A DNA stretch of 64,000 nucleotides. It comes from an uncultured Saccharospirillaceae bacterium. GTDB lineage: Bacteria; Bacteroidota; Bacteroidia; Flavobacteriales_D; CAJJDF01. Position 1 is the stretch's first letter, and every line of letters starts with the position of its first letter. The notes beneath the pieces are model-generated. The model was given only the letters and a program-made list of their open reading frames with translations. It searched no databases and was not told the origin of the DNA. The stretch covers positions 1 to 64,000 of the forward strand of contig CATLPG010000003.1 of assembly GCA_950054195.1 (NCBI GenBank). Direction: 5' to 3'. This document shows positions 18,879 to 48,169 of the stretch, piece by piece. The position numbers and the translations under genes were made by a program.

Positions 18879-20489
18879 ATGGAATTATTAGTTGTCATAC
18901 TTATCATCTTAGCTTTAGTTGCTCTAGCTCAAATCATGAAGGTATATGAGCTTTCGTCTAAACTGCGTAACAAAAGCGAAGCTGACGTCACTAAAGATGA
19001 GACAAACTTTAATGCATCAATGATGATTGTATTTATGGTTGTTTTTTTAGTAGGGAGTGTTTATTTAATTATCAAATATCCTTCAACCGTTGTAGGACCA
19101 GTAGCCTCATTACATGGTGCTGATATTGATTGGTTATATTGGATAAACTGGGTAATCCTTTTAGTTGTATTTTACATTACACAACCAATCCTATTTATTT
19201 TTGCCTACAAGTATAGAAAGCAAGAAGGTGTTAAGGCTACTTTCTTTGCACACTCTAATAAACTAGAGTTAATATGGACTGTAGTACCAGCGGTAGTTTT
19301 GGCTATAATCATTACACTAGGTATTTTTTACTGGAACAATATTACAAACGATAAAGATTTTTATGTGCAAGCAAAAAAATCACATATTATTGAAAATGGT
19401 AATGTATTAACAGAAAAAGAGTTTAAAGAAAAGGTTGATGAAGAATCTATGTACGAATACATTCGTTTATTAGGAGAAGAAAGCCACTACATCAAGTTTA
19501 ATGATTTTTTAAATTTTAGAAAATACTTTAATAGCGAAGACGAAGCAAAATCCTTTGTAGAAGCTAATGAAGAATACTCAAAAACAATTGATAGAACTGA
19601 GTATATTGAATTATACGCTTATCAATTTGGCTGGTTTGCAAGGTATGCAGGTAATGATTATACGTTAGGTAAATCAGATTTTAAAGTTTTAGATGAAGGA
19701 GCTAATCCACTCGCTGTTTTGACTAGTGATGTCATAAAAGAAAAGGAAGAAGCTTGGACTAAAGAAATTGAAGATTTAAAGAAAGAGATAGAGGGTAATG
19801 ATCTGATTTCTGATGCCAAGGTTGCATCAGTAGAATCTAAAATTGCTAGGTTAGAGAGACAATTAAAGAGGTTAGAGCCATTGGCTAAAGCTCAAACTGA
19901 GGAGGAGGATTTAGCTGCATTAAATGATATTATCGTTAAAGAACTTGTACTAATAAAAGGGCAAAACTATCAGTTTAAATTTAGAAGTAGAGATGTTATC
20001 CATAGTGCTTTCTTCCCACACTTTAGAGCACAAATGAACTGCGTTCCTGGTATGGTTACGAAATTTAATTTTACACCAACTGTTACTACTGATGAAGCAA
20101 GAAATAATCCAGAAATTATTGCTCATTACAAGGATGTAAATGATAGAAGAATAGCTAAAGGTGAAGAACCAATTGACTTTGATTTCCTTTTATTATGTAA
20201 TAAAATTTGTGGAGCTTCTCACTACAACATGCAAATTAAAATTACTGTTGTAGAAGATAAAGCTGCTTACCAAAGATGGTATAATGAGCAAATTGGAGGA
20301 AAATCATTTGCATCTGCAAGAGGTAAAAACGAATTAGAAATTGCAGAAATCTTCAACATGAGTTTAGAGGAGATTTATGGAGTAGATAAAGCCAAAGAAA
20401 TTAAAAAGAAATTTGGACTACTAGTTGAAGAGGATGCAACAGCTGAGGGTGTTGTAGGAGATACTACATTACAAGCAGCAAACGATTAA
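18879..20489 (+). CDS. coxB: Cytochrome c oxidase subunit II with extra helix and coiled-coil insert
   Basis: Subunit II takes electrons into the oxidase through the binuclear CuA site. The CuA ligands are present: HSAFFPHF and, near the C-terminal third, LCNKICGASHYNMQ, in which the second cysteine, histidine and methionine are kept and the common CxE is CNK, a form I recall from flavobacterial enzymes. Three membrane helices are seen, one more than the usual two. At 536 residues it is longer than usual: a charged segment before the LYAYQFGW strand and a coiled coil (about residues 285-345, KEIEDLKKEI, VESKIARLERQLKRLEP) are inserted within the cupredoxin domain. It lies 41 bp after actF. 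Confidence 0.93.
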   Translation: MELLVVILIILALVALAQIMKVYELSSKLRNKSEADVTKDETNFNASMMIVFMVVFLVGSVYLIIKYPSTVVGPVASLHGADIDWLYWINWVILLVVFYITQPILFIFAYKYRKQEGVKATFFAHSNKLELIWTVVPAVVLAIIITLGIFYWNNITNDKDFYVQAKKSHIIENGNVLTEKEFKEKVDEESMYEYIRLLGEESHYIKFNDFLNFRKYFNSEDEAKSFVEANEEYSKTIDRTEYIELYAYQFGWFARYAGNDYTLGKSDFKVLDEGANPLAVLTSDVIKEKEEAWTKEIEDLKKEIEGNDLISDAKVASVESKIARLERQLKRLEPLAKAQTEEEDLAALNDIIVKELVLIKGQNYQFKFRSRDVIHSAFFPHFRAQMNCVPGMVTKFNFTPTVTTDEARNNPEIIAHYKDVNDRRIAKGEEPIDFDFLLLCNKICGASHYNMQIKITVVEDKAAYQRWYNEQIGGKSFASARGKNELEIAEIFNMSLEEIYGVDKAKEIKKKFGLLVEEDATAEGVVGDTTLQAAND

Positions 20490-20522
20490 TTAATAAAACG
20501 TATTATAATACTATAAAACTCA

Positions 20523-22301
20523 ATGGGAGCACACAGTACACACGCACACGGACACCATCATCACGAAAGTTTTATAACCAAGTATATCTTTAGTCAAGAT
20601 CACAAAATGATCTCTAAGCAGTTCTTGATTACTGCTATGGTCATGGGTGTTTTTGCAGTAATTTTATCTGTATTATTTAGATTACAAATTGCTTGGCCAG
20701 AAGAATCTTTCGAATCAATGAAATTCTTTTTAGGTGAAGATTATGTTGATCAAAATGGATTATTAAAGCCAGATAGGTATTTAGCATTAGTAACAATTCA
20801 TGGTACTATCATGGTATTCTTTGTACTAACTGGAGGATTAAGTGGTACATTCTTTAACTTACTTATTCCACTTCAAGTTGGAGCAAGAGATATGGCATCT
20901 GGTTTCTTAAACATGTTGTCATATTGGTTATTTGCATTAGCTAGTGCAGTTATGTTATTTTCTTTATGGGTTGAATCAGGGCCAGCATCAGCAGGTTGGA
21001 CAATTTACCCTCCACTCTCTATCCTGGAGGAAGCAATTCCTGGATCTGGACTAGGTATGACACTTTGGTTAGTGAGTATGACTATGTTTATCGCTTCGTC
21101 TTTATTAGGTGGACTTAATTATGTTGTTACTATCATTAACTTGAGAACAGTAGGTATGAAAATGACACGTATGCCATTAACCATGTGGGCGTTTTTAACT
21201 ACTGCTATTCTTGGGGTACTTTCATTCCCCGTGTTAGTTTCTGCGGTAGCGCTTTTATTAATGGATAAATCATTTGGTACATCTTTCTACTTGTCAGATA
21301 TATTTGTAGGAGGAGAAGCTTTAGATGCTTCTGGAGGTAGCCCAATTTTATTCCAACACTTATTTTGGTTCTTAGGTCACCCAGAAGTATATATTGTACT
21401 ATTACCAGCTTTAGGTATCACATCTGAGATCGTAGCAACTAACTCAAGAAAGCCAATTTTTGGTTACAGAGCGATGATCGGTTCTATCTTAGCTATTGGT
21501 TTCTTATCATTCATCGTATGGGGTCACCATATGTTTGTAACTGGTATGAATCCATTTATAGGAGGTGTATTCGTATTTACAACATTGCTTATTGCGATTC
21601 CATCTGCGGTAAAGGCTTTTAACTACATCACAACGCTATGGAAAGGTAGTATACATTACACACCAGCAATGTTATTTTCCATTGGTTTAGTATCAACATT
21701 TATTACTGGAGGTTTAACAGGAATTATCCTAGCGGATGCAACATTAGATATTCCAGTACATGACACGTATTTTGTGGTTGCTCACTTCCATATTGTAATG
21801 GGGTTATCTGCCATCTATGGAATGTTTGCCGGAGTTTATCATTGGTTCCCTAAAATGTATGGACGAATGATGAATAAGAAATTAGGATACCTTCACTTTT
21901 GGTTAACTATGATTTGTGGATATGGGGTATTCTTCCCAATGCATTTTGTTGGTTTAGCAGGTTCTCCTAGAAGATATTATTCATACACTGAATTTCCATT
22001 TTTAGACCACGTTCAAGATTTAAATGAGGTTATTACATTCTTCGCAATTATTGGAGGTTTAGCTCAAATTGTTTTCTTCTATAATTATTTTTACAGTATT
22101 TGGAATGGACCAAAAGCGACTAAAAACCCATGGAGATCTAACACATTAGAGTGGACAACACCAGTAAACCCAGGACATGGTAACTGGGATGGACCTTTAC
22201 CAGTTGTTCACAGATGGGCATATGATTATTCAAACCCAGAGCATGAAGAAGATTTTGTGCCACAAACAGTTCCTTTAAAAGAAGGAGAACACGGTCACTA
22301 A
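20523..22301 (+). CDS. coxA: Cytochrome c oxidase subunit I
   Basis: Subunit I of a haem-copper oxidase, 592 residues with about 12 helices. Visible landmarks are GHPEVYI, which includes the D-channel glutamate of A1-type oxidases and the first CuB histidine and tyrosine, WGHHMFVTGM with two further CuB histidines, and HDTYFVVAHFHIVMG with both haem-binding histidines. The D-channel aspartate is in GARDMA. The N terminus is histidine-rich (HSTHAHGHHHH). The usual K-channel lysine appears to be histidine in GSIHYTPAMLF. It is the last gene of the operon and subunits III and IV are not next to it. Confidence 0.95.
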   Translation: MGAHSTHAHGHHHHESFITKYIFSQDHKMISKQFLITAMVMGVFAVILSVLFRLQIAWPEESFESMKFFLGEDYVDQNGLLKPDRYLALVTIHGTIMVFFVLTGGLSGTFFNLLIPLQVGARDMASGFLNMLSYWLFALASAVMLFSLWVESGPASAGWTIYPPLSILEEAIPGSGLGMTLWLVSMTMFIASSLLGGLNYVVTIINLRTVGMKMTRMPLTMWAFLTTAILGVLSFPVLVSAVALLLMDKSFGTSFYLSDIFVGGEALDASGGSPILFQHLFWFLGHPEVYIVLLPALGITSEIVATNSRKPIFGYRAMIGSILAIGFLSFIVWGHHMFVTGMNPFIGGVFVFTTLLIAIPSAVKAFNYITTLWKGSIHYTPAMLFSIGLVSTFITGGLTGIILADATLDIPVHDTYFVVAHFHIVMGLSAIYGMFAGVYHWFPKMYGRMMNKKLGYLHFWLTMICGYGVFFPMHFVGLAGSPRRYYSYTEFPFLDHVQDLNEVITFFAIIGGLAQIVFFYNYFYSIWNGPKATKNPWRSNTLEWTTPVNPGHGNWDGPLPVVHRWAYDYSNPEHEEDFVPQTVPLKEGEHGH

Positions 22302-22396: not shown

Positions 22397-25300
22397 ATGT
22401 TAAGATATTTATTAGTCCTTTTTATATCCTTATTAATTAGTTCAACTATTAATGCACAAAATTTTGTAGTAATTAATAGCCAAGTAGCTAACACGGTTAA
22501 CTTGTGTAACGAACAAAAAACGTTTCGCGTATCCATAGAAAACCCCTCTAGTTTTAATGCTAGTAATGTTTCCGTAACCATAACTTTGCCAACAGGAGTC
22601 AATTATGTGCCGTCATCTTTAACTGTTGGAACCGAACAAAATATTACTAATTTAGAGCAACCTGTTTTTTCTTTTCCCGATATAAATGTTTTAACCACAA
22701 CAACTTTTCAGTACGATGTCGAAGCCAATTGTGATGCAATAGCCTTTTTAAGTGGTGGTGGAATTCCATCTAATGCAGTATCGGTTAATTACACAGCGAA
22801 TGGGAATAACATCACACAAAATCATACAACGAGTGACTATAATGTTAGTGTTCCTAACTTATCTGTTTCTTCGTTTACAAATCAAGTAGAGCCTTCAGGA
22901 AGTATTGGGTCTAGTTATAATAGATGTATTACCATAACAAATGGAGGAGTAGGTTATTTATCTTCTTTTACTTTAGAAAATACACATGGTGATGGAATTC
23001 AAATTGATAATATTAGTGCAGGAACAAGAAGCACAGTAGGGCTGGTGGATACGTATGTTTTAGATGGTACTGATTTTACATCTATAGGAGATGGTGATGC
23101 ATTTTTCGAAACAGGAGAATCAATTACAATTTGCGAGGATTACACGGTTTTAAACTGTGTTAACGTACTTTCTGAATACGAAGCATTTTGGGGGTGTAAC
23201 GGAGCTAACTGTCAAGTAGTAACAACTACATCAAACGTGCTATTTGGAAACACTAGTCCTTTAATTGAAGGAGTAAGTGTTATTAGTGATAATAGTACTT
23301 GTCATGGAAGCGGAGTTACAAGAACAGAAGGGTTTGTTGTTACAAATAATGGTAATGGTTTAGCTATAAATTCTGAGTTTAATATTTTTCAAAGTTGGAC
23401 TAGTTCCGGCTTTAGAAGTACCTGGTACAGTTCTATTGACACTTCTTCAGTAATGGTTACAGTTAATGGAGGAACTCCTTTTCATGTAGCTCCTTTTCAA
23501 GTTACAAATAACACCATTCCTCACGCAGGTGATATGTCTAGTTGCCCGCCTGACAATATTGGAGAGTTTTGGGTGAGGTTAGATACGATAGAACCAACTG
23601 ATACGGTTGAAATTACATGGCAAGTAACAGAATGTGATCCCGTTGGTTGTTATTCTTCTCGAAGACATACACTTGGATGGTTTTACGAAGTAGCTTACGA
23701 AAATATTTGTCAAAATGATTTCTTGATGGAGCCTATTAGAGGAAGAGTGTACGATTACTTCAGAGAAACATTAGCATCTAACCTCGCTCCAGCAAATATA
23801 ATAAGTGGTGAAACACTTAATTTTAATTACTTAATAGCTGTACAAGAAAAAGCAGTAAGAAGAGATGTTAATAATGATCAATACGTATATAAATTGGTCT
23901 TACCTGCATGTTTATCATATACTGGAGGTTCATTAACTGTTTTAAATGAGGATAATAGTGTTTTGGCTAATGAAATAAGTAGTTATGTGAATGGCGACAC
24001 AACATTTATAACTGTAGAGTATGGGGGGGCAGGAAACTTTGTAAATGGTCAGTTAACTTTTGATTTAACAGCAGATTGTTCTGGTTGTGGAAACGTTTCT
24101 GGAGCATATCCAATCGAAATTTATTCTACTTACAATTCTGATACTACATGTCCAAGTAATATAGATATACAATTAGCATGTTTTACCACACAAGTATACG
24201 TGTTGTGTCCATCTAGTTGTGATGGTTACAATTTTACATCCTTTGATGTTGCAAGAACCAATTTAGGTCAGTCAGATAATGATAACGATGGTCTTCCAGA
24301 TACGCCTAATGCATTAGATATGTCGTTAATTCGTGATGATCGTGCGATGTTCGCTGATACAATCGAAATGGTTTATGGAGGAGAAATTACGGTCAATGGA
24401 GGAACTCCTAATTTTGATTATTTTACTATTAATAGTGAAATCGATTACGGTATTTATTTAACTTATTTAGACGGAGAGATAAGATTTTTTGATCAATCAA
24501 CAGGAGTAACACATGTTGCTACTGGAATTCTACCTCAATCAGATAATGTTACTGGTCATATTCGAGAAATTGTTTTTGAGGAACAAATATCTACGCTTGC
24601 CTTTACCCCAGCTTTACCTGGAGGCTTTACAATTGAAAACACAGACTCATTATGGTTTGATGCTAACTACAGAGTATCATCTAACCCAACAAGCAACATA
24701 GGAGGATCTGGTGCTAATACAGGAAATAACATTCTAGAAAGTAAAATTTCATCGGTAACTTATTTGTCTGATGTGCCAAATGCAGCACCTGCAGATCAAT
24801 ACGGATGTAATGATTTAGAAGGTTACATTTCTTTAATTGGTTATTATCATACAAATTCTGGAGCAATTGACATAAATCATGATAATTGTGACACTGTTGA
24901 ATTAACTCGATTGACTTACTATTCAGTTGGACCATGTTGTAGTAACTATGCAGGGGGTAACTTATTTCCTTTTGAATATCGTAATTGGGTAATTGATGAT
25001 TCCTTAATCATAGATTTACCTGGAGAGTACGAAATAGCAGATGTTACTTATCAACTTTATAGATCTACTGGTTATGGTATAACAGCTGAACCCTTAATAC
25101 CAATATCTCCAATCGGAGGAAGTACAACAGGAGACCGTTTTACTTTTGATATAGCACAGTATTATAATAATGGAACACTAGTGCCTAGTGATGAAGGTCA
25201 CTACTCATATACTCGACTCAAATTAGTACCAACATGTAATACACCAAAAGCTGTACAACAACGAGCTAATTTTTACTTCAAGAGATTAGAGTCTTATTTA

Positions 25301-28300
25301 GGTAACGCTGTAAATACTAGAAATCCGTGGGTGAATTTGAGGTATGATGGTCCAGAATTAAATATTCAAACGGCTTTACCAACTGTTAATGCCTTTGATA
25401 GTATTGGAAGATGGGATGTTACATTATCCAACAACTCTAATATTTCATCGGCAGAATATACCTGGATAACACTTCCTCCAACAGGTACAATGTCTATTAA
25501 AAGTATTGATACTTCGGGAGTTCCAATTCTACCAGATGCTAATGGATTTTATCAATTAGGGATGCTTCCTTTTGGGGAAAGTATTGATTTGCATATAGAA
25601 GGACGATATACTTCCTGCTCTAGAGATTCCATCGAGTTTTACTCTGGGTGGAGTTGTTCGGGATATCCTACTGCATTATCAAACTACCCATGTGTTCCCG
25701 ATAGTATAACACTATTCGTAGTCCCTCAACTTCCTAATTTAGAAACAAGTATACCTTTCCATACAGATACGTTAGGTTTATGTGATACAGGAACTATTGA
25801 GGTTAGTGTACGTAACGTGCAAACAGGTTTTGGGTATAATGTAACATTAACAGGAACTATACCAGAAGGAGCAGATATAATACCTGGCTCAACCGAATAT
25901 AAAGCGCCTGATTCATCAACATTTGTTTCTGTAGCAGATCCAACAAATTTAGTGGCAACTACTTGGTTATGGGATTTTGGCACTGATGAACTAAAAGGCA
26001 TTAATGTTGGAGGTAACGAAGGTGTTATTAGATTTCAGTTTGTAACTACTTGTGAATACACATCTGGAAGTCAGTTTAATTTTTATAGTGAGGCCGATGC
26101 TGCTTGTCCTTATTCAAATAGAAGTTTTACTACAAGTTCAAGTCCAACAATCATTGATGATGCTATTTTACCTTATGAAACAACAGTAAAAATTGTTACA
26201 GATTTTATTTCCCCTTGTAAAGGAGCTACAGATGTTCAGGTAATTGTAATTAATAACGGACCTCAAGTTGTTACTCCTCAAGACTCAATAATTATAAGAA
26301 TTCCAAGTGGGGTAGATTATGTTTCAAACTCTTTTTCTCCAGTATATAATGCACCAGTCAATGGGTCTCCGGTAACTGGTGATTTTGGAACTTACAAAGA
26401 AGTTTCTTGGAAAATTCCAGCAGGTACAGCGGTAGGAGATAGTTCTATTTTTGATATACAATTACGAGGGAATAAAGATTCACTCGATTGTTCTATCGTA
26501 ACACTAGATATTTTCTCAACAAGTACGGTGGTTTCCAACTGTTCAAGCTCAGGTAGTCCGTGTAGTATTAGTACCATCACAGGAGATACAGTAAGAAATG
26601 TATTCATTTTTAAATCGTATGTAACACTTCAAAACGATGAATCAACATCAATAATTAACGGTCCAACAGGAGAAATTGGTTATGTTGATTTCGAGGTGTA
26701 TAATACGGGAGATACTATAGCCGATTCTAACGATTCATTCATTTCCTATTATTTTGATGCTGATAATAACGGTATACTTTCTCTAGGAGATAGCAATTTC
26801 CATACATCACTAAAAAACTTAACCATTTTAGGTAATAATGGAACTACACAAATATTAGATACAATCAATATACCTGCAGGCTTTGCTTGTGGAGTTATAG
26901 CCGTTTTAGACTCAAGTGAAAATGCATGTATTTGTTCTTCTACTCAACTACCTCTTAATTTTAAGTTAGTGTCTAATCTACCTGATACTTCTACTTGCTC
27001 TGATGTTGTAACGCTTTATGATGCTGTTGATTCGGTTGATGGATATACCTATTCATGGACACCAGTTGCATCTTTAGATAATTCAGCGAAGGCTCAACCA
27101 ATCTTTCAAAAAAATAACCCAGGTGCAACCCCAGATGTTAATGAGTATTATTTAGAAATTGATCGAGGAGGATGTTTTGGCTATGACACGATTGAGATTG
27201 TAGTACTTCCGGATGTAACAGCAAATGCCGGATTAGATGATTCTTTATGTGGTACATACTCGTATACCTTAAATGGTAATGTCCCAAATAGTGTTTATCT
27301 ACAGCAAGGTCTTTGGACTGGGGCAGCTACTAATCCATCTACAGTAAATTTTGTTGATCCTTCTGATGCTTTAACTACAGTTAGTAATTTATATGAAGGA
27401 ACATATGAATTATACTGGCAGGTATTTACACATTGTGATACTGCTGTAGACACATTAGTATTAGAAATTTATGATGAACCTACAGCTAACGCAGGGCCAA
27501 ACGATACCCTTTGCAATACATATGATTATACCTTAGGGGGTAACTTCCCTAATGGAAGATCAACAGGGCAGTGGATTGCAGAACCTACCAATCCATCAGC
27601 AACAACTTTTGCTGATGCTAGTGTTAATACAACTGTTGTTAGTGGTATGATTGAAGGTACCTACCAGTTTTACTGGGTTGTAAGTAATGGAAACTGTACG
27701 CCAGCTAGGGATACTGTTATTATTGATGTATTTGATAGTGCCGTTTCAAATGCTGGTCCAGATGATAGTATTTGTAGTGTTTATACCTACGCATTAGCAG
27801 GTAGTTTACCTGCAGGAAGATCAACAGGGCAGTGGGTAGCTGAAACTTCTAATCCATCTGTAACAAGTTTTGATGATGCTAGTGTTAATAATACTACCGT
27901 AAGAGACTTAATTGAAGGGACATATAATTTTTACTGGGTTGTATCTAATGGTAATTGCCCAGATGTAATTGATACCATAGTTCTTGATGTATTTGACACT
28001 CCTTTTGCAGATGCAGGGTTGGATGATAGCCTTTGTAATACATATGAATACACGCTAAATGGAAATTTCCCAGCTGGAAGATCAACGGGTGAATGGATAG
28101 CAGAGACTGCTAACCCATCTGTAACTACTTTTGATGATTCAAGTATAAATAATACAACTGTTAGGGGTATGATTGAGGGTACTTATTATTACTATTGGAT
28201 GGTTAGCAATGGTAATTGTGCTTCAGTTGTTGACACTGTTATGATAGATGTATTTGATAGTGCAGTATCAAATGCTGGTCCAGATGACAGCTTGTGTAAT

Positions 28301-30358
28301 GTTTATACGTATACCTTTAATGCTAATCAGCCAGTTGGTAGAGCCAGAGGTTTATGGACAGTTGATGGTGCAAATGCTCCAGTAACGTTTGATTACGATA
28401 CAGCTTTTGATGCTACAATAACAGGATTAGCAGAAGGTACTTATATTTTCTACTGGACGGTTAGCAATGGAAGCTGTCCGGATGCTATAGATACCATGGT
28501 GCTAGATGTTTTCGATACACCATTTGCAGATGCTGGGTTAGATGATAGCATATGTGATGTTTATACCTATCAATTTAGTGGTAATAATCCAGTTGGAAGA
28601 TCAACAGGAGAGTGGACTGCAGAAGCAGCTAATCCATCTACAACTACTTTTGATGATGCGACACTTTACAATGCAACTGTAAGTAATTTAATTGAGGGAA
28701 CATATACGTTTTATTGGACAGTTAGTAACGGTAATTGTATATCAGTAACTGATACAATGGTACTAGATGTGTTTGATTTACCTGTTTCAATTGCGGGAGA
28801 TAATGATAGTTTGTGTGGATCTTACTTTTATACGATGAGGGGAAATGTGGCAGTTGGTAGATCAACTGGTTTATGGACTGAAGCTACTTCAAATCCAACA
28901 CCAACTGTTTTTGCTGATCCAACAGTTAATAATACAGCAATATCTGGACTTATTGAAGGGACGTATAAATATTACTGGACAGTTAGTAATGGTAATTGTG
29001 TACCAGCTGTTGATTCTGTAATAATTGATGTTTATGATATCCCAGTTTCTGATGCGGGACCAAATGATACGCTATGTAATATATATACTTATACCTTTAA
29101 TGCGAATGTTCCAGTAGGAAGGTCTCAAGGGGAATGGGTGCACAGTGTTTCAAATCCTAGTTCAGTTATATTTTCTGATAATAATTCGCCAAACGCTACT
29201 ATTAGTAATTTAATTGAGGGTACATATGAGTTTTCTTGGGTAGTATCCAATGGAAATTGTGCAGATGCTGTTACTTCTATAATTATTGATGTTTATGATC
29301 AGCCAACGATAAGCGTTGGAGCAGGAGATTTACTGTGTGATGAAAGTGAATTCCTACTAATAGGAACAAACCCTAAAGGTAGGTCGCAAGGTTTATGGAC
29401 AGTATCTCCTAATAGTCCACAAGCAACTATTTTTTCTAATCCAACAAATTCTCCAAATATGGTAAGTAATTTGGTTAGGGGAGATTATCGTTTCTATTAC
29501 ACGATTAGCAATGATGGTTGTCCTTCAGTAATAGACTCTGTAGATGTACAGGTTCGACCTAACCCTATTGCCGAAGCCTTAACTTCTGATCAAGAAATCT
29601 GTGAAACAGATTGTATTAACTTTGTAGGGGCTAATAGTTCGGTGTCAAACGTTTTAGGAGATCAAATTATAGAATATCAATGGTTGTTTGGAGATGGAGC
29701 ATCATCCGATAATGTTGACGGAACTTATTGTTACCCAACCGAAGGATTATATGATGTAGAACTTGTTGTTAGTACTAATAATGGATGTACAGATACTGTT
29801 GTTTTACAGAATCACGTTAGAGTTCATCCATTACCTACGGCAGACTTTTCTTACACTCCAGATCAACCAAAAATCTATGAAGTAATAACCTTTAATGATT
29901 TATCATACGATGACATAGAAAATAGAACGTTTACTTTTAGTGATGGTGTAGTAAAAACTACGGATGAGTTTATTAAAACGTTCCCAGACACAGGGTATTT
30001 CAATTTAGATTTACTTGTAGAAACAATTCATGGTTGCTTGGATAGTCTTTCAACCCAAATCTATATCAAAAATGAGTTTGCAACGTTTGTTCCGAGTGCC
30101 TTCTCTCCAAACGGAGATGGTGTAAATGATGAATTTTTACCAATTTTCCATAATATAGAATTTGAGAACTATCATTTTTATGTGTTTGATCGCTGGGGTG
30201 AAGTTGTGTTTGAAACCGAAGAACGAAATAAACCTTGGGATGGTATGTTTAAGTCATTGCCTGTAAAACTAGGAGTTTATATATGGAGAGTTGAATATAA
30301 GAAAAAGGATTCCAGTGTAGAAGGTGAAGTAACAGGTCATATTACGGTGATTAAATAG
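22397..30358 (+). CDS. Giant type IX secreted surface protein with CHU_C domain
   Basis: A 2653-residue protein with a signal peptide (MLRYLLVLFISLLISSTINAQ). Roughly the first 1600 residues are DUF11-like beta-sandwich repeats, recognisable by units such as ITNGGVGYLSSFTLEN and NNGNGLAINSEFNI. Residues about 1606-2386 are nine tandem repeats of about 87 residues (see repeat entry). Two PKD-like domains follow (WLFGDGASS, FTFSDGV). The last about 90 residues are the gliding-motility C-terminal domain: FVPSAFSPNGDGVNDEF, VFDRWGEVVFET, WDG and GVYIWRVEY, a type B sorting signal of the type IX secretion system. It is therefore expected on the cell surface or released, acting as an adhesin; the target is unknown. 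Confidence 0.88.
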   Translation: MLRYLLVLFISLLISSTINAQNFVVINSQVANTVNLCNEQKTFRVSIENPSSFNASNVSVTITLPTGVNYVPSSLTVGTEQNITNLEQPVFSFPDINVLTTTTFQYDVEANCDAIAFLSGGGIPSNAVSVNYTANGNNITQNHTTSDYNVSVPNLSVSSFTNQVEPSGSIGSSYNRCITITNGGVGYLSSFTLENTHGDGIQIDNISAGTRSTVGLVDTYVLDGTDFTSIGDGDAFFETGESITICEDYTVLNCVNVLSEYEAFWGCNGANCQVVTTTSNVLFGNTSPLIEGVSVISDNSTCHGSGVTRTEGFVVTNNGNGLAINSEFNIFQSWTSSGFRSTWYSSIDTSSVMVTVNGGTPFHVAPFQVTNNTIPHAGDMSSCPPDNIGEFWVRLDTIEPTDTVEITWQVTECDPVGCYSSRRHTLGWFYEVAYENICQNDFLMEPIRGRVYDYFRETLASNLAPANIISGETLNFNYLIAVQEKAVRRDVNNDQYVYKLVLPACLSYTGGSLTVLNEDNSVLANEISSYVNGDTTFITVEYGGAGNFVNGQLTFDLTADCSGCGNVSGAYPIEIYSTYNSDTTCPSNIDIQLACFTTQVYVLCPSSCDGYNFTSFDVARTNLGQSDNDNDGLPDTPNALDMSLIRDDRAMFADTIEMVYGGEITVNGGTPNFDYFTINSEIDYGIYLTYLDGEIRFFDQSTGVTHVATGILPQSDNVTGHIREIVFEEQISTLAFTPALPGGFTIENTDSLWFDANYRVSSNPTSNIGGSGANTGNNILESKISSVTYLSDVPNAAPADQYGCNDLEGYISLIGYYHTNSGAIDINHDNCDTVELTRLTYYSVGPCCSNYAGGNLFPFEYRNWVIDDSLIIDLPGEYEIADVTYQLYRSTGYGITAEPLIPISPIGGSTTGDRFTFDIAQYYNNGTLVPSDEGHYSYTRLKLVPTCNTPKAVQQRANFYFKRLESYLGNAVNTRNPWVNLRYDGPELNIQTALPTVNAFDSIGRWDVTLSNNSNISSAEYTWITLPPTGTMSIKSIDTSGVPILPDANGFYQLGMLPFGESIDLHIEGRYTSCSRDSIEFYSGWSCSGYPTALSNYPCVPDSITLFVVPQLPNLETSIPFHTDTLGLCDTGTIEVSVRNVQTGFGYNVTLTGTIPEGADIIPGSTEYKAPDSSTFVSVADPTNLVATTWLWDFGTDELKGINVGGNEGVIRFQFVTTCEYTSGSQFNFYSEADAACPYSNRSFTTSSSPTIIDDAILPYETTVKIVTDFISPCKGATDVQVIVINNGPQVVTPQDSIIIRIPSGVDYVSNSFSPVYNAPVNGSPVTGDFGTYKEVSWKIPAGTAVGDSSIFDIQLRGNKDSLDCSIVTLDIFSTSTVVSNCSSSGSPCSISTITGDTVRNVFIFKSYVTLQNDESTSIINGPTGEIGYVDFEVYNTGDTIADSNDSFISYYFDADNNGILSLGDSNFHTSLKNLTILGNNGTTQILDTINIPAGFACGVIAVLDSSENACICSSTQLPLNFKLVSNLPDTSTCSDVVTLYDAVDSVDGYTYSWTPVASLDNSAKAQPIFQKNNPGATPDVNEYYLEIDRGGCFGYDTIEIVVLPDVTANAGLDDSLCGTYSYTLNGNVPNSVYLQQGLWTGAATNPSTVNFVDPSDALTTVSNLYEGTYELYWQVFTHCDTAVDTLVLEIYDEPTANAGPNDTLCNTYDYTLGGNFPNGRSTGQWIAEPTNPSATTFADASVNTTVVSGMIEGTYQFYWVVSNGNCTPARDTVIIDVFDSAVSNAGPDDSICSVYTYALAGSLPAGRSTGQWVAETSNPSVTSFDDASVNNTTVRDLIEGTYNFYWVVSNGNCPDVIDTIVLDVFDTPFADAGLDDSLCNTYEYTLNGNFPAGRSTGEWIAETANPSVTTFDDSSINNTTVRGMIEGTYYYYWMVSNGNCASVVDTVMIDVFDSAVSNAGPDDSLCNVYTYTFNANQPVGRARGLWTVDGANAPVTFDYDTAFDATITGLAEGTYIFYWTVSNGSCPDAIDTMVLDVFDTPFADAGLDDSICDVYTYQFSGNNPVGRSTGEWTAEAANPSTTTFDDATLYNATVSNLIEGTYTFYWTVSNGNCISVTDTMVLDVFDLPVSIAGDNDSLCGSYFYTMRGNVAVGRSTGLWTEATSNPTPTVFADPTVNNTAISGLIEGTYKYYWTVSNGNCVPAVDSVIIDVYDIPVSDAGPNDTLCNIYTYTFNANVPVGRSQGEWVHSVSNPSSVIFSDNNSPNATISNLIEGTYEFSWVVSNGNCADAVTSIIIDVYDQPTISVGAGDLLCDESEFLLIGTNPKGRSQGLWTVSPNSPQATIFSNPTNSPNMVSNLVRGDYRFYYTISNDGCPSVIDSVDVQVRPNPIAEALTSDQEICETDCINFVGANSSVSNVLGDQIIEYQWLFGDGASSDNVDGTYCYPTEGLYDVELVVSTNNGCTDTVVLQNHVRVHPLPTADFSYTPDQPKIYEVITFNDLSYDDIENRTFTFSDGVVKTTDEFIKTFPDTGYFNLDLLVETIHGCLDSLSTQIYIKNEFATFVPSAFSPNGDGVNDEFLPIFHNIEFENYHFYVFDRWGEVVFETEERNKPWDGMFKSLPVKLGVYIWRVEYKKKDSSVEGEVTGHITVIK
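27212..29555 (+). repeat. Nine tandem 261-bp coding repeats in the giant adhesin
   Basis: Repeat units start at about 27212, 27479, 27740, 28001, 28262, 28520, 28781, 29042 and 29303. Distances are 267, then 261 for every step except one of 258. Each unit has the form N/DAGxDDSLC, YTYxxNGN, P-x-GRSTGxW, NPS, IEGTYxFYWxVSNGNC and ends in DVFD. Consecutive units alternate between an AVSNAGPDDS and a PFADAGLDDS version in the middle of the array. Paired cysteines per unit could form a disulfide. Confidence 0.9.
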
Positions 30359-40012: not shown

Positions 40013-43000
40013 TTGAATATACTCTTTAGTTACATATTTTTTATTCTTTTGTTTGCGGGTAATTTACTTGCTCAGCACACAGATTACCCTTTTGTGGAGA
40101 ATAAAGGGCAATGGGATTCAAGAATAAATTATAGATACGACTTGGGTTCGGGGTATTTATTTTTAGAGGACAAGGGGTTTACTTATTCACTGATGGATAA
40201 ATCATACATTCATCAAATTCACCAAGATAAAATTGTTGAAGCCCCTGATTATATCCAGGCTCATGCAATAAAAACTACTTTTTTAAATGCTAATGACAAC
40301 GCCTCTATAAAGAGAAACAATCCATCTTCACATTATTATAATTACATCTTAGGAAAAGATACTGTGAAATGGAAAAGTTTTGTACGATCGTATAGTGAAA
40401 TAGTCTATCAAGAACTATACCAGGGTATTAATTTAAAAATGTATCAGTCTGGTGGAGTGCTCAAATATGATTTTCATGTTAGTCCAGCGGGAAATCCTTC
40501 GGAAATTAAAGTTGTTTATCAAGGGCATGATGCGATGTTTATCAATGAAGGGAATTTAATAGTCATTAATCAAGTAAATGATTTAATAGAACAAAAGCCC
40601 TTTGCATACCAATGGGTAGATGGGTACAAATTAAAAGTACCATGTAGTTATGAGTTAAGCGGAGATACATTAAGTTATCGTTTTCCAAAAGGCTATGATC
40701 GAACAAAGGAACTCATTATCGATCCAGTAATTGTTTTTTCATCTTTTAGTGGAAGTACGGCTGATAATTTTGGTTTTACCGCTACTTACGATGCCGATCA
40801 AAATGCGTATGGAGGTGGGATCGTTTATGAACTTGGACAATATCCAACCACAGTCGGTGCTTATCAATTAGCGTTTAATACTGGAACAGCAGGAATGGTA
40901 GATATGGGGATCTCTAAATTTACTGCGGATGGTTCTTCACTCATCTACTCCACTTATTTGGGAGGGGGATTAAGTAGTGATGCGCCTCACAGTTTAGTTG
41001 TAAACAATAACAACGAGCTTTATATTTTTGGAACTACGGGTTCTGCAGATTATCCCGTAACTCCTAATGCTTATGATACATCATTTAATGGAGGAGCAGG
41101 GGTGAGTCCTTTGTATTCGGGAGTTACCTTTAGTTCAGGGTCGGATATTGTTGTTTCTAAATTAAGTGCAGATGGTTCTACTTTGTTAGCTTCAACATTT
41201 GTGGGGGGAACGGCAAATGATGGGTTAAACAACGATTTAGCTTTAAGTTATATTTACGGAGATGCTTTTCGAGGGGAAATTCTAGTAGACGATACAGGAA
41301 GCTGTTACGTTACTTCAACAACAAACTCAGCAGATTTCCCTATTGATTCTAATGCGATACAATCCTCTTATGGAGGCGGTTTTTCTGATGGGATTAGTTT
41401 TCAAATGAATGATTCGTTAACTGCCATTACGTGGGGAACGTTTATTGGAGGTTCAGGATCAGATGCAGCTTATGGTTCTCAGTTTAATTCATCAGGTGAC
41501 TTATATATCACAGGAGGAACTGCAAGTGCAGATCTACCCATGGATAATAAAGGCTATGATTCTACACACAACGGACAAGAAGATGGTTTTTTAATTCGGT
41601 ATAATGTTGCCCAAGACACCATGCTAGCTAGTACTTTCCTAGGAACAGCTGGTTACGATCAAACATATTTTGTGCAAATTGATGTTAGTGATGATGTATA
41701 CGTTTTAGGTCAATCCAATGGAGGGTATCCTGTACAAGGCAGTGTTTATAGCAACCCAAACAGTGGACAGTTTATCCATAAATTAGGAGCAAACCTAGAT
41801 ACTTCCATATGGAGTACGGTTGTAGGTTCTGGAAGTGGACAAGTAGATCTTTCACTAACCGCATTTTTGGTGAATAATTGCGGGTATGTGTATTTATCTG
41901 GCTGGGGAGGATCACTTGCAGGAATTGGTTTATACCGTGCGGATTTTAGTAGCACAAATAACTTACCCTTATCGGCAGATGCTTATCAAAGCACAACTGA
42001 TGGAACAGATTTTTATTTAATGGTATTAAATAATGATGCGACCAATCTTCTTTTCGGAACTTATTTTGGAGGAGGAATCAGCATGGAACATGTAGATGGC
42101 GGTACGAGTCGATTTGATAAGCAAGGAAATGTTTACCAAGCTGTGTGTGCAGGTTGTGGAGGAAACAGTGATTTTCCAACTACCTCAGGTGCATGGTCTA
42201 CTACAAACCCAAGTACCAATTGCAATTTAGGCGTTTTTAAATTCAACTTAGAGTATATTGATAATTTGGCATCTGTTCCAGTACCTTTTATTTGCTTACC
42301 AGACTCGGTAACGTTCCAAAACAATAGTAGTGGAGGTAATACCTATTATTGGAGTTTTGGCGATGGAGATACTTCTGTGCTTCAAGAACCTAGTCATGTT
42401 TACCAAGATACAGGAACTTACGAGGCTTTTTTAATTGTTTCTGACTCTACAGGATGTATGCCTCCAGACACGGCATATATGACTATCGAAGTGTACCGAC
42501 CAGAATTAATTACAATTAACCCCGTGGATACTATTTGTCCGGGTGATACTGTTCAAATTCAAGCAGTGGGCGGACAAGTATTTTCTTGGACTCCTTCACA
42601 TTCTATTGTAAATGATACGGTAGAATCTCCTTTTGTTTTTCCTGATACTACAACTACTTATCAATTTATAAGTTCTCATTACTGTAATACCGATACAGGA
42701 TATGTTACCGTTCCAGTTCAAAGCGATGTAACAGCTATTGATAACGATACGGTTATTTGTAGAGGGTCAAGCGTACAGCGATCGGCTTATGGAGGTGTTT
42801 CTTACGATTGGTATCCTTTGATTGATATTGTTAACGAAACATCAGCTACACCAACATTTACACCAAGTGTTCCACGAATGTACTATGTAGATATTACCAC
42901 ACCAAGAGGTTGTGTATTTACTGACTCAGTTTTCATTAATCATTTTGTGGATACCATTTCAACTATCGATGATACATCAGTCTGTATTTACCAATCAGTA

Positions 43001-44584
43001 GAATTATTTGCACAAGGAGGAGGAACATACACATGGACACCAGCTGCTACTTTATCAGATACCACTAGTTCAAATCCATTAGCGTCACCTTTAGTTAATA
43101 CAGCTTATTTTGTTGAGGTTGTAACACCTAATGGATGCTATTATTCTGATAGTATTCGAGTGGATGTGATTGAAGATACTTATTCAGTAATACCAGACAC
43201 AACAGTATGCTTGAACGATACCGCTTTTTTATGGGCTTCGGGAGGAATTAATTATAATTGGACATCTGCAGCTTTTATTGATTCTGTAACAAGTGATCAA
43301 CCAAAACTGTTTTCAAGTAGTTCTTCGGCAGCTTATGTGACTATTGGATTTGCTTCTGGTTGTACAAGAACGGATAGTACTTACGTAACGATAGTAGATG
43401 ATCCTGTTTCTGTTGGGAATGGAGGAACTATTTGCCTGGGAGAATCTTTTCAGTTATCTGCAAATGGAGGTGTGAATTATGCTTGGAATCCTTCAGTAAC
43501 ATTAGATAATCCTTTATCTGATAGTCCTATAGCAACACCAAGTGTAACCACTACTTATGTTGCGGATATTACGACTCCGAATGGATGTACAAAGCAAGAT
43601 TCTGTAGAAGTAATTGTTGATACGCTCGTTCCTAATCCACAATTAAGTAATGATACCATTATTTGCTTGGGTGATTCAGTGAACTTATTTGCCAGTGGAG
43701 CGCAACAATATACTTGGGAACCTTATACATCGCTTAGTACTCCCGTTGGAAGTCAAACTACTGCTTACCCAACTGCATCAACTAATTATGTGGTTAATTT
43801 TACAAATTCTTGTGGTACGGAAATCGATAGTGTAGAGGTGGTAGTGAATGAAGTAAATGGAGCTACTAGTGGGAATCAACTTATTTGTAGAGGAGATTCT
43901 ATTTGGTTGTGGGCTAGTGGAGGAGAGGAGTACCTATGGTTTTCTTCAGGAGGAAATTTTTTAACGCCTACGGATAGCTCAAGTGTGCTCGTACAGCCTA
44001 ATGGATTAACTGTTTATTATGTTACCGTTACTGATTCTTTAGGGTGTGAAGAAACGTATTCGTTACGAATTACTTTTTATCCTGAGTCTTGGGTAGATGC
44101 AGGAGAAGACAAAACAATTACCTACGGAAATTATACCGTTTTGGATGGTACAGGAAGTTTGGGAGCTATTCGTTGGACACCCGCTAATGGATTGTCTTGC
44201 GATACATGTTTTACCCCAATTGCTATTCCTGATGGAAATACGGTTTACACTATTTTGCTAACCGATAGTAATGGTTGTGAAGCAATAGACTCTGTGCTTA
44301 TATCTTTAGATGGTATTTTGTATGTTCCCAATACGTTTACGCCTAATGGCGATGGCATGAATGATTACTTTTTTGCTAAAGGAGAAAACATTACGCTATT
44401 TAAATTGTTTGTCTTTAACCGCTGGGGAGAACTCCTTTTTGAAACAGAAGACATTAGTAAAACATGGGACGGTACTCACAAAGGAAAACTCCTAAAAACC
44501 GATACCTATGTTTGGCGGATTATCTATAAAAAACAAAATGGCGATACCCAAGAAGTAACTGGGCATGTTAATTTGTTGAGGTAG
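40013..44584 (+). CDS. Large CHU_C secreted protein with SBBP and Ig-like repeats
   Basis: The only start after the in-frame stop at 39992 is TTG at 40013, which opens a signal peptide ending LLAQ. The 1523-residue protein has, in order: a region typical of SBBP-repeat proteins (FVENKGQWDSRINYRYDL), an SBBP beta-propeller (units like STYLGGGLSSDAPHSLVVN and SADYPVTPNAYDT, to about residue 750), a PKD domain (WSFGDGDTSVLQEPSHVYQDTG), about eight Ig-like repeats of about 75 residues, and the type B sorting domain YVPNTFTPNGDGMNDYF, VFNRWGELLFET, WDG, DTYVWRIIY. Expected to be exported by type IX secretion to the surface, likely in adhesion or gliding. Confidence 0.88.
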   Translation: MNILFSYIFFILLFAGNLLAQHTDYPFVENKGQWDSRINYRYDLGSGYLFLEDKGFTYSLMDKSYIHQIHQDKIVEAPDYIQAHAIKTTFLNANDNASIKRNNPSSHYYNYILGKDTVKWKSFVRSYSEIVYQELYQGINLKMYQSGGVLKYDFHVSPAGNPSEIKVVYQGHDAMFINEGNLIVINQVNDLIEQKPFAYQWVDGYKLKVPCSYELSGDTLSYRFPKGYDRTKELIIDPVIVFSSFSGSTADNFGFTATYDADQNAYGGGIVYELGQYPTTVGAYQLAFNTGTAGMVDMGISKFTADGSSLIYSTYLGGGLSSDAPHSLVVNNNNELYIFGTTGSADYPVTPNAYDTSFNGGAGVSPLYSGVTFSSGSDIVVSKLSADGSTLLASTFVGGTANDGLNNDLALSYIYGDAFRGEILVDDTGSCYVTSTTNSADFPIDSNAIQSSYGGGFSDGISFQMNDSLTAITWGTFIGGSGSDAAYGSQFNSSGDLYITGGTASADLPMDNKGYDSTHNGQEDGFLIRYNVAQDTMLASTFLGTAGYDQTYFVQIDVSDDVYVLGQSNGGYPVQGSVYSNPNSGQFIHKLGANLDTSIWSTVVGSGSGQVDLSLTAFLVNNCGYVYLSGWGGSLAGIGLYRADFSSTNNLPLSADAYQSTTDGTDFYLMVLNNDATNLLFGTYFGGGISMEHVDGGTSRFDKQGNVYQAVCAGCGGNSDFPTTSGAWSTTNPSTNCNLGVFKFNLEYIDNLASVPVPFICLPDSVTFQNNSSGGNTYYWSFGDGDTSVLQEPSHVYQDTGTYEAFLIVSDSTGCMPPDTAYMTIEVYRPELITINPVDTICPGDTVQIQAVGGQVFSWTPSHSIVNDTVESPFVFPDTTTTYQFISSHYCNTDTGYVTVPVQSDVTAIDNDTVICRGSSVQRSAYGGVSYDWYPLIDIVNETSATPTFTPSVPRMYYVDITTPRGCVFTDSVFINHFVDTISTIDDTSVCIYQSVELFAQGGGTYTWTPAATLSDTTSSNPLASPLVNTAYFVEVVTPNGCYYSDSIRVDVIEDTYSVIPDTTVCLNDTAFLWASGGINYNWTSAAFIDSVTSDQPKLFSSSSSAAYVTIGFASGCTRTDSTYVTIVDDPVSVGNGGTICLGESFQLSANGGVNYAWNPSVTLDNPLSDSPIATPSVTTTYVADITTPNGCTKQDSVEVIVDTLVPNPQLSNDTIICLGDSVNLFASGAQQYTWEPYTSLSTPVGSQTTAYPTASTNYVVNFTNSCGTEIDSVEVVVNEVNGATSGNQLICRGDSIWLWASGGEEYLWFSSGGNFLTPTDSSSVLVQPNGLTVYYVTVTDSLGCEETYSLRITFYPESWVDAGEDKTITYGNYTVLDGTGSLGAIRWTPANGLSCDTCFTPIAIPDGNTVYTILLTDSNGCEAIDSVLISLDGILYVPNTFTPNGDGMNDYFFAKGENITLFKLFVFNRWGELLFETEDISKTWDGTHKGKLLKTDTYVWRIIYKKQNGDTQEVTGHVNLLR
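42527..44095 (+). repeat. Seven tandem Ig-like repeats of about 75 codons
   Basis: Units start at about 42527, 42746, 42971, 43196, 43421, 43652 and 43874, spaced 219, 225, 225, 225, 231 and 222 bp. Each carries D-T-x-I/V-C-x-G-(D/E)-S, then ASGG-x-x-Y-x-W-x-P and TYxVxxTxxxGC. A degenerate eighth unit leads into the CHU_C domain. The repeats are more diverged than those of the 2653-aa protein. Confidence 0.85.
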
Positions 44585-44681: not shown

Positions 44682-44727
44682 TGATCTCAAATTTATTACT
44701 TTAGTTAAAGTCTTATTAATTTTAGTT

Positions 44728-46713
44728 ATGCCAATTTCACTCAGAGAAAAAAAACTATTTTTTCTATTTTCTAAATTGAATAGTGTCAATAATAGGAATG
44801 TCAGATTTACTCTTGTCGTAGATTATTTTTTAAACAATCAAAATAAATCTACAAACTTAATTGAAGTTCATTCTGAATTAGATAAAAAAATAGGGCTGAA
44901 CTCTTCACCTGAATCACTAAAAAGAGATATTTCAAATAGTGATTTAATGCACTATTTTCATGGGTTTTCTAAAAAACAAAAAATTGAAAAGGAGTTTAAT
45001 CTAAACCAAAAGCTCTATAAAACTTTAATTTCTTACGAGGAAAATACAGATGTTCTCGAAGAATTGATAACAGAATTCTTATTTAAGAAACAAGAAGATC
45101 CTATTAAGTATAAGGTTATACTTGAAATTTTTTATGAAGCATTAATAGAAAGAAATCTGATGTTTTTGAGACAAGCATCTAGTATGAAAGAAATAGGAGG
45201 CTTGACAAAACAATTACAAATTGACTTAAAAAAAGTACATTCTAAACATGAAAATGCAGATTTATTACTCTACAATGAATTCATTTTAAATAGTGATAAA
45301 AAATTCAATGATATTTTAAGAGTTTTAGTGAATAAAGTGTTCGAATTTATGCAGCTTCATTATGATCCAACACTTGATAAGCATAATAACAAAGCTTTCA
45401 AAAACAAGATATTTTATCTTGATAGCTCTTTTATAATGAGACTTTTTGGGTTTAATGATTTGATTCGCAGAGATAGAGCACTTGAACTAATAAAGATATT
45501 AAAAACTATTCCGAACGTTAAGTTTGTTGTCCATCAAGAAACAATAAATGAAACTAACAATGCAATTACAAACATTGTAAATAATGCCGAAAAATATATT
45601 AATAATCAAAGAGCTTTAATAGATAAGATTGGAAGATATTCAAAATGTAAACTCCATGCTTTAGAACTTTTTGATGACTTAAAAGCAAGTAAAAAAATCA
45701 GCTCTTACAAGGAGTTTAAGTTATATTATGGGAATGTAAGTAAAGTATTAAAACGAATATTTGGTAATGACTTTGAGCTAAATGATGAAAAATTTGAAAC
45801 TCCTGACCCAGACGTAAAATATAAAGATTTAGAGGATGAGATTTTTAAATTTGAATGGAAATCAGCAAATAGGTCAAGACACATTGCTGGTCTAATAACA
45901 TATCTAGCTGGCTTAAGAGGCTCTAATAATGTTAATTTATATGATATTCATCATTGGTTAATAACAACAGATCAAACAACCTTAAAAATTGATTTAGACC
46001 TTTGTTTTGCGGATGGATTTAAGAGTAAACCTGTTTGTATCTTACCGACAGAATTATTGACTGCATTGTCAGAACATAAAGATCTTGACGGAGAATATGT
46101 AGAGGTATTTAAGAAGTTTATGCTGTATTCAAATGTTTTTGAGAAGGAATATTCTGATGATGATCTCCTTATAATTAATGGCGTTATAGACTTAGTCGAA
46201 GAATATAAAACCACAGATTATAACCCTGATATAATGATTGATGCTTTAATAGAAGAAGATTTTTTGTCAGAAGTAAAAAAAAGATTTATTAAAGCTGAAA
46301 ATAAAACTAGCAAGAGAAAAAAAATTGCTGAATTTTTTGTAGAGCATTACAATAGGACTTATAAGGGTAAATACAATAAATTTATTAGTGCCAGATTTTC
46401 GATAAATTATAGAAACATAAAGCTTCTTTTCAGATTACCAGCTATAGTTCTCACTGGATGGTTTTGCTTTTTATTATTAAATTGGTCAGGATTCGAATTA
46501 GCTGATCCGAAAACATGGATTAAGATTGAAGAATGGGGAGAATTAGAAGCTGTTTTTACTATTATAGTTTCATCAGTTTGGTATATTACAAGAGTTATTT
46601 TTAAAAAAAGAATTCCTTTAAAAATTTCCACTTGGTATATGATTAAAAAATATAATTTAGATAAAAAAGAAGCTGAAAGCTTTGTTTCTCTCAATTTTAA
46701 AATTGATAAGTAA
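44728..46713 (+). CDS. Membrane-anchored PIN-like nuclease candidate, unknown function
   Basis: A solitary 661-residue gene, visibly more AT-rich than its neighbours. Residues 1-220 are helical and charged. The stretch KIFYLDSSFIMRLFG (Asp232), HQETINE (Glu271/Glu275), NLYDIHHWLITTDQTTL (Asp406, Asp415) has the order and context of the acidic metal-binding residues of PIN-domain nucleases, including the terminal TTD. The spacing between the second and third acids is long because of an inserted helical region. Two C-terminal membrane helices lie at about residues 567-588 and 608-625. I do not recognise the family. No partner gene is adjacent. A role in phage defence or RNA cleavage at the membrane is a guess; assignment of the PIN fold is moderate. 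Confidence 0.7.
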   Translation: MPISLREKKLFFLFSKLNSVNNRNVRFTLVVDYFLNNQNKSTNLIEVHSELDKKIGLNSSPESLKRDISNSDLMHYFHGFSKKQKIEKEFNLNQKLYKTLISYEENTDVLEELITEFLFKKQEDPIKYKVILEIFYEALIERNLMFLRQASSMKEIGGLTKQLQIDLKKVHSKHENADLLLYNEFILNSDKKFNDILRVLVNKVFEFMQLHYDPTLDKHNNKAFKNKIFYLDSSFIMRLFGFNDLIRRDRALELIKILKTIPNVKFVVHQETINETNNAITNIVNNAEKYINNQRALIDKIGRYSKCKLHALELFDDLKASKKISSYKEFKLYYGNVSKVLKRIFGNDFELNDEKFETPDPDVKYKDLEDEIFKFEWKSANRSRHIAGLITYLAGLRGSNNVNLYDIHHWLITTDQTTLKIDLDLCFADGFKSKPVCILPTELLTALSEHKDLDGEYVEVFKKFMLYSNVFEKEYSDDDLLIINGVIDLVEEYKTTDYNPDIMIDALIEEDFLSEVKKRFIKAENKTSKRKKIAEFFVEHYNRTYKGKYNKFISARFSINYRNIKLLFRLPAIVLTGWFCFLLLNWSGFELADPKTWIKIEEWGELEAVFTIIVSSVWYITRVIFKKRIPLKISTWYMIKKYNLDKKEAESFVSLNFKIDK

Positions 46714-46813: not shown

Positions 46814-48169
46814 CTAAAAATAAATCACATACCCAATTAAAAAGTAGATCAATAAACCTACAACATCATTGGCAGTTGTAATAAACGGACCAGTAGCTAA
46901 GGCAGGGTCAATTTTTCGTTTGTGAAGTACAAGAGGTACGAGTGTTCCAAACAATCCCGCAAAAATGATAACAGCCATCAAGGAGATACTAACAGTTGTA
47001 CCTAGTTTTAAATCTTGCTGGATACCCCAAATAATAAAAAAGATGGCAACAGAACAAGCTAAACCATTAATTAATGCTATACCAAATTCTTTAAGCAGTT
47101 TGGTGTAGGTGTTGCCCATATCAATAGAATTAGTAGCTAAACTTTGCACAATAATAGCTGAAGATTGTACCCCAACATTACCTCCCATAGCGGCAATTAG
47201 GGGAATAAAAAAGGCCATTTCTGGAAAAGTACCTAATTGATGTTCAAACAGTCCTATAACTTGTGCGCCTAGCACCCCTCCAACTAAACCAACCATTAAC
47301 CAAGGAAGCCGTGCTTTGGTAATTGCCCAAATACTATCGTTTGACTCAATTTTTTCGGAGATACCACTCGCCATTTGATAATCCTTTACAGCCTCATCTT
47401 CCATTACATCAACAATATCGTCAATTGTAATTCTACCGAGTAGGAGGTTGTCATCACTTACAACCGGTATGGCAACTAAATCATATTTTTTCATGGATTT
47501 AGCTACTTCTTCAATGTCCTCATTTACATTTACCGAAATCACATCCGTCATGTAAAGGTCTTTCACTAAATCGTTATCCTTCGCAAAAAGTAAGCTTTTT
47601 AAAGAGAACATACCGATCAGTTGCTTGCCTTTGTCTATAACGTAAATGGTGTACACGTAGCTTACGTCTTCTGCTTGTTTTCTAAGTTCTGAGATACATT
47701 GTGTAACGTTCCAATCGTCTTTAACAGCAATAAACTCTGTTGCCATCCAAGCACCAGCTGTGTTTTCCTCATAGGCCATTAACGAAGCGATAGACTGTGC
47801 TTGTGCTTTGTCTTCAATTTGAGAAATTACACTTTGCTGCTTTTCTAGTGGTAACTCCGAGATGATATCAGCAGCATCATCAGAGTCCATATTGTCGATT
47901 TGTTCAGCGATTTCTTTAGCAGAAAATGCTTTCAAAAATATCTCACGAACATCTTCATCAAGTTCTACAATTACATCCGAAGCTAATTCATCCGTTAGTC
48001 TGCGAAAAATAAATTTAGCTTCCTCCAAGTTAACCACATCAAGGATTTCAGCAATATCGGCAGGGTGCATATTTACAACCTTCTCTTGAATGCTTTGCTC
48101 GTCTCCTTGATCAACCAGTAGTTGTAGTTGTTCAATAAACTCTTTATCTATTTTAATATGGTCAGACAT
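46814..48169 (-). CDS. mgtE: Magnesium transporter MgtE
   Basis: MgtE is a gated Mg2+ channel of the inner membrane. The 451-residue protein shows the N-terminal superhelical domain (MHPADIAEILDVV, DSDDAADIISELP), the CBS pair (VIDKGKQLIGMFSL, YDLVAIPVVSDDNLLLGRITIDDIVDVME) and five membrane helices with the GNVGVQSSA pore motif and PALATGPFITTANDVVGLLIYF. The first CBS lead-in reads ENTAGAWM where many have ENTAGRIM. It is the last gene of a minus-strand run with the polyprenyl synthase (4 bp apart) and rfbA. No terminator with a T-run was seen downstream. Confidence 0.95.
   Translation of the reverse strand: MSDHIKIDKEFIEQLQLLVDQGDEQSIQEKVVNMHPADIAEILDVVNLEEAKFIFRRLTDELASDVIVELDEDVREIFLKAFSAKEIAEQIDNMDSDDAADIISELPLEKQQSVISQIEDKAQAQSIASLMAYEENTAGAWMATEFIAVKDDWNVTQCISELRKQAEDVSYVYTIYVIDKGKQLIGMFSLKSLLFAKDNDLVKDLYMTDVISVNVNEDIEEVAKSMKKYDLVAIPVVSDDNLLLGRITIDDIVDVMEDEAVKDYQMASGISEKIESNDSIWAITKARLPWLMVGLVGGVLGAQVIGLFEHQLGTFPEMAFFIPLIAAMGGNVGVQSSAIIVQSLATNSIDMGNTYTKLLKEFGIALINGLACSVAIFFIIWGIQQDLKLGTTVSISLMAVIIFAGLFGTLVPLVLHKRKIDPALATGPFITTANDVVGLLIYFLIGYVIYF

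Follow-up and report, generated by a model that had tools for sequence, protein, structure and literature searches.

We propose that the gene described here, which lies in a window of 64,000 nucleotides (the whole stretch of DNA that was analysed), probably encodes an accessory effector of the PIN-nuclease type that is anchored to the membrane and consists of a single gene product. It would belong to a mobile, defence-associated protein family, of which the window copy is an acquired and fast-evolving member with isoleucine (Ile386) at the position of the third catalytic acid.

The gene was confirmed as a real open reading frame of 661 aa whose frame is intact over all 661 codons, and its coordinates and length agreed with those given in an earlier note on this DNA. 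Its G+C content was 26.9%, the lowest among the 45 genes of the window and 3.3 standard deviations under the mean of the 44 others (34.7%, standard deviation 2.3), which bears out the remark that it is visibly more AT-rich than its neighbours. The gene was also correctly described as solitary: a large gliding-type secreted protein is encoded on its left (40013-44584, plus strand), and an MgtE-type transporter is encoded on the other side in the opposite orientation (46814-48169, minus strand). No defence genes were found near the gene. The small inverted repeat ahead of it, to which the note had attached meaning, did not hold up as a feature, since 0.88 such sites per window (with at most one mismatch) are expected in shuffled sequence. 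The features of the gene are listed in Table 1.

Table 1 Features of the window gene and of the UBA5422 relative.
Feature	Position	Strand	Basis
Whole gene, 661 aa	44728..46713	+	ORF call; leave-one-out family profile (E 6.5e-14)
Small inverted repeat ACTTTA-GT-TAAAGT ahead of the gene	44698..44711	.	Chance level, probably not a feature
Residues 1-220, helical N-terminal region, closing with the invariant F185 segment	44728..45387	+	Low-confidence model
Residues 225-293, PIN-like domain part 1 (b1, a1, a2, b2, a3)	45400..45606	+	AlphaFold core model, Foldseek, Pfam PIN matches of relatives here
D232, first PIN acid (Asp after b1), 17/17 members	45421..45423	+	Family alignment
E275, second PIN acid (Glu after b2), 17/17 members	45550..45552	+	Family alignment
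Residues 294-379, mostly helical insert within the PIN-like domain	45607..45864	+	Family alignment/core model
Residues 380-448, PIN-like domain part 2	45865..46071	+	Core model, family alignment
I386 (ATT) at the third PIN acid position; Asp in 16/16 relatives	45883..45885	+	Family alignment, codon read
D415 of the ITTD motif, fourth PIN acid	45970..45972	+	Family alignment
Membrane helix 1, about residues 566-586	46423..46485	+	Hydropathy
Membrane helix 2, about residues 606-627	46543..46608	+	Hydropathy
UBA5422 member, MCU-like C-terminal hairpin, GWEIMEP	L027:1462-3537 = L043:4944-7019

When the window protein alone was used, no credible family was obtained from Pfam, NCBIfam or PADLOC. In Pfam, no PIN match was observed, and the matches to At2g31720-like, RTTN_N and antitermQ were dismissed as weak and senseless; in PADLOC-DB 2.0.0, no model of a catalogued anti-phage protein matched. 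As a single query, the protein retrieved no relative from plasmids, phages, viral contigs or genome contigs. Homologues were likewise absent from 59 related genomes, among them the sole other species of the genus and four from the family, and from 394 other genomes of the phylum, and a class-level search with E-values up to 1 gave chance matches only. No empty site was seen in the genus-mate, where the homologue of the left neighbour stops at the contig edge and different genes follow the MgtE gene. The gene is probably acquired: it is rare, AT-rich and missing from the genus-mate and the family-mates. The earlier idea of an acquired accessory gene was supported, and the gene is not universal in the genus.

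Among 399 genomes searched at the order level, one distant homologue was detected, in Flavobacteriales bacterium UBA5422 (residues 13-498, E 2e-6). With the UBA5422 protein as the next query, two Hymenobacter plasmids were found, and a profile then added three further genomes (G259, G196 and G308). The G308 protein as query led to plasmids of Pantoea, Klebsiella, Enterococcus, Sporosarcina, Arthrobacter and Hymenobacter and to a Listeria fragment, and members were also found in two viral contigs and in two of 5426 E. coli genomes. Altogether, 16 distant relatives with approximately 16-22% identity were gathered from Bacteroidota, Firmicutes, Enterobacterales and Actinobacteria. A profile built from these 16 relatives, with the window protein omitted, recovered the window protein at E 6.5e-14, versus E 64 for the best of 500 shuffled sequences. 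Hence, we concluded that the window protein truly belongs to the family. The relatives were covered by no PADLOC or NCBIfam model, and ten of them gave just weak coiled-coil or chance matches against PADLOC-DB 2.0.0; they may be described in a preprint about defence systems that lie within immune loci (doi 10.1101/2024.01.29.577857, cited in PMC13092281). Scattered 'hypothetical proteins' of prophages, plasmids and restriction operons in several phyla are thus joined into one family with a common plan.

This plan, shared by all members, begins with a helical N-terminal part; a PIN-like domain interrupted by a helical insert comes next, then a charged coiled coil and, at the C-terminus, a hairpin of two helices. 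The N-terminal region appeared winged-helix-like in several relatives, as judged by eye on a low-confidence model. The hairpin is present in all members, yet the hairpins differ widely. Sub-threshold Pfam matches to PIN families were observed in four relatives, all at the same place: PIN_3 in those of Arthrobacter (E 3.6e-4) and Enterococcus (E 5.9e-4), PIN_12 in one of Hymenobacter (E 0.0068) and PIN in G196 (E 0.015). The model of the full-length window protein was poor (pLDDT 46), and the AlphaFold model of the core (residues 214-452) reached a pLDDT of 72 and a pTM of 0.74, with strands and helices in PIN order. In a Foldseek search of the core against the PDB, nine of the ten best matches were PIN-fold nucleases (HARP RNase P, Nmd4 and VapC), with E-values no better than 0.02. 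A fold search of BFVD gave just weak PIN/FEN-like matches, and sequence profiles of the entire family or of the core retrieved only coiled-coil and chance matches from the PDB. The profile matches of the relatives, the core model and the Foldseek result are weak singly, and we regard them as jointly convincing evidence for a predicted PIN-type fold. The PIN fold with a large helical insert that the earlier note had suggested was therefore borne out at the family level. By its lack of PIN profile similarity, the window protein taken singly would have refuted the note's idea, and only the sub-threshold matches in the four relatives overcame this. The two C-terminal membrane helices of the note were supported by hydropathy, and these and the helical N-terminal region are common to the family.

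The family alignment predicts which residues matter. D232, E275 and R397 are invariant in all 17 members. The third acid is an Asp of the helix that precedes the last motif; both clades of the 16 relatives keep it, and Ile is found only in the window protein, with the 11-residue distance from Ile386 to R397 as in the relatives that have Asp. The position of D415 is occupied by Asp in the clade of the window protein, and members of the other clade carry Asn or Thr there. The acids proposed earlier (D232, E271, E275, D406 and D415) were all located at these residues of the protein. Among them, only D232, E275 and D415 aligned with catalytic PIN positions; E271 is not conserved in the family, and D406 is shared by no more than 7 of the 17 members. 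D406 is also unlikely to replace the missing acid, as it sits ahead of strand b4 and would hardly reach the pocket, whereas D415 follows b4. A sequencing error at Ile386 is unlikely as well, since two base changes would be needed to turn ATT into an Asp codon and the frame is intact.

PIN enzymes generally need all three acids. The nuclease activity of the window copy is therefore doubtful, and little or none would be expected from its sequence; the intact nuclease assumed in the earlier note is at odds with the loss of the third Asp, which no other member has undergone. In addition, the window protein forms the longest branch of the family tree. Of the 15 core positions at which its five clade sisters are invariant, it has lost 5; the losses of any one sister amount to at most 2 of 12. 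The long branch and the lost positions fit relaxed or changed selection after the loss of the catalytic Asp, and by its sequence the window copy is a fast-evolving family member with a broken triad. It might still be a working nuclease, in which one metal bound by D232, E275 and D415 is enough and Ile386 alters only the rate or the metal preference; the intact frame of 661 codons would agree with this, as would the retention of D232, E275 and D415, the last of which is the acid missing in half of the family. We consider this unlikely, since the third Asp is kept in 16 of 16 relatives from both clades, the window copy evolves fastest and the enzymes of this type generally require three acids. 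Judged from the alignment, decay or a non-cutting role seems more likely than an intact weapon, and the window copy may represent an antiviral weapon that was disarmed or put to another use. The natural change from Asp to Ile offers a ready-made comparison between decay and a new role of a dead copy.

The genomic neighbourhoods of the relatives point to conflict with phages. In G259, type I restriction genes enclose the member, in the order hsdM, hsdS, a hypothetical gene, an OLD-type ATPase gene, the PIN gene, an AlbA/RecG-like gene and hsdR; in G308, the PIN gene lies immediately after the type I restriction genes hsdR-hsdM-hsdS and near an AAA_15 ATPase gene. An uncharacterised 489-aa gene of a type I restriction operon (L050:4908-6377), located between hsdS and an OLD-type ATPase gene and without a clear Pfam match, is possibly another defence gene. 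The PIN gene of Hymenobacter monticola lies just ahead of Qat genes, that of H. qilianensis adjoins TIR, SIR2 and Piwi genes (short-Argonaute/SIR2/TIR), and that of Sporosarcina occurs a little before a set of nucleotidyltransferase, ThiF, Mov34 and SAVED genes, that is, CBASS. Upstream of both Hymenobacter plasmid members (L044:3493-5192 and L045:3475-5323), an HTH gene and a P63C-domain gene were observed, possibly a linked regulator pair; one of the HTH genes showed a weak M78-peptidase match.

Several members are located in prophages. In E. coli FDAARGOS_1337, the member is carried by a P2-like prophage, with the sheath gene on one side and tail-fibre genes on the other, which in P2 is where the exclusion gene fun lies. 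The gene fun has been described as part of a second P2 locus rich in defence genes (PMC9519451). An intact E. coli member from a P2 prophage is located at NZ_CP070026.1, 4009886-4011862. The accessory exclusion genes of P2 (old, tin and fun) resemble the family in their P2-like prophage position; no sequence relation was seen. In E. coli MEI7BO1-21 and in viral contig L060, likewise P2-like prophages, the member lies between the Ogr-like and D genes, and in viral contig L061 it lies right before the prophage terminase genes. Other members occur singly on plasmids, with recombinases and insertion sequences as neighbours, and the G196 member adjoins copper-resistance genes; in three contexts, those of the window and G196 among them, no defence genes were seen nearby. 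At the level of the family, the defence association suggested earlier is plausible, given its restriction, Qat, CBASS and Argonaute neighbours and its carriage by prophages and plasmids.

Alternatively, the family might not be directed against phages and might serve its carriers otherwise, for instance in the maintenance of plasmids or prophages or in the control of host RNA turnover. The many members that are alone on plasmids or prophages, and the copper-resistance genes beside that of G196, would be compatible with such a role. However, repeated insertion into restriction operons and beside Qat, CBASS and Argonaute genes argues against it, as does the member at the P2 fun position (PMC9519451), and neither an adjacent antitoxin gene nor any other partner gene was conserved across the loci of the family. 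A role outside phage defence is thus rather improbable, though slightly less so than a working nuclease in the window.

For the preferred reading, an antiviral effector of the PIN type, we propose the following working. The coiled coil and the C-terminal two-helix hairpin would tether the family protein to the membrane, and its own N-terminal and insert regions would hold the nuclease inactive by auto-inhibition. Phage infection would release this latent membrane-bound nuclease, and the freed PIN domain would then cut RNA, so that phage production stops. The window copy may be decaying, or may be reused as a non-cutting sensor or competitor. Sequence-derived features suggest this mechanism, namely family membership, the PIN-type fold, conservation of the D-E-D acids, the predicted hairpin, mobility and the defence neighbours; we infer nuclease and antiviral activity of the family from them. 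Overall, the idea of the earlier note largely holds for the family and is partly wrong for the window copy. If true, a membrane-tethered single-gene PIN effector without an antitoxin would join the few known PIN-based phage defences.

The closest functional parallel, compared by description, would be DS-3, a one-protein phage defence of E. coli that works without an antitoxin. Its PIN domain is split, and protection is lost when the catalytic residues are mutated (DefensePredictor, PMC13092281). DS-3 and the present family are alike in being single proteins with a PIN domain interrupted in sequence, no antitoxin and presumed auto-inhibition. The PIN domain of DS-3 is said to be split between the N- and C-terminus, whereas that of the family is central and followed by the membrane hairpin. 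VapC toxins, whose structures were among the best Foldseek matches, share the PIN-type fold and acids; however, they are small, soluble and paired with VapB, whereas the family proteins are approximately 660 aa, membrane-anchored and unpaired. The window gene itself does not resemble a VapBC module, as it encodes 661 aa and no short gene lies directly beside it. HARP, the minimal protein-only RNase P, gave the best fold matches of the core, and both have a PIN domain with a helical insertion. It is a small soluble tRNA-processing enzyme, unlike the membrane-anchored family, and no sequence similarity between them was found.

The C-terminal membrane region of the UBA5422 relative matched the mitochondrial calcium uniporter-type family MCU (PF04678) at E 5.6e-13 and 49.8 bits, over the Pfam cut-off of 30.8. 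This C-terminus also aligned with solved calcium uniporters at E 4e-8 over the coiled coil, TM1, the IMEP motif and TM2, with its GWEIMEP paired with WDIMEP of the uniporters. In the window protein, the aligned segment reads GFELADP, without the IME core and well before helix 2, and the protein showed neither a significant match to PF04678 nor a DIME motif. The order of coiled coil, TM1, EIMEP and TM2 was matched by the UBA5422 relative only; an MCU assignment for the whole family was therefore rejected, and the MCU-like part is treated as a putative module of one branch and as a lead. The literature searched yielded no description of a PIN-MCU fusion. The UBA5422 relative would place a channel that is best known from mitochondria in the context of bacterial conflict.

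In another reading, the real effector would be the membrane hairpin, acting as a calcium-uniporter-related pore or channel, and the PIN-like part would serve as a sensor or dead scaffold. The UBA5422 match and alignment speak for this, as do GFELADP and the broken PIN site of the window protein. It is nevertheless very unlikely, since MCU is matched in no other member, the hairpins vary widely, the window motif is without the IME core and well ahead of helix 2, and the D-E-D acids are conserved in the other members. Equally speculative, and to be given little credence, is the idea that the family couples a PIN nuclease and a membrane pore in one polypeptide, at least one branch having a true calcium-uniporter-like channel. 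Infection would then both cut RNA and open the membrane, and the window copy, its cutting site lost, would act via its membrane part or as a dominant regulator.

Two other loci were observed in the window. An ordinary respiratory cluster occupies 9106-22301, in which genes of the alternative complex III type for cytochrome c and molybdopterin/iron-sulphur subunits come first and those for cytochrome oxidase subunits follow. A 2653-aa secreted protein with many similar repeats of approximately 85 residues (AGPNDSLC...) and a gliding-type C-terminal end is encoded at 22397-30358.
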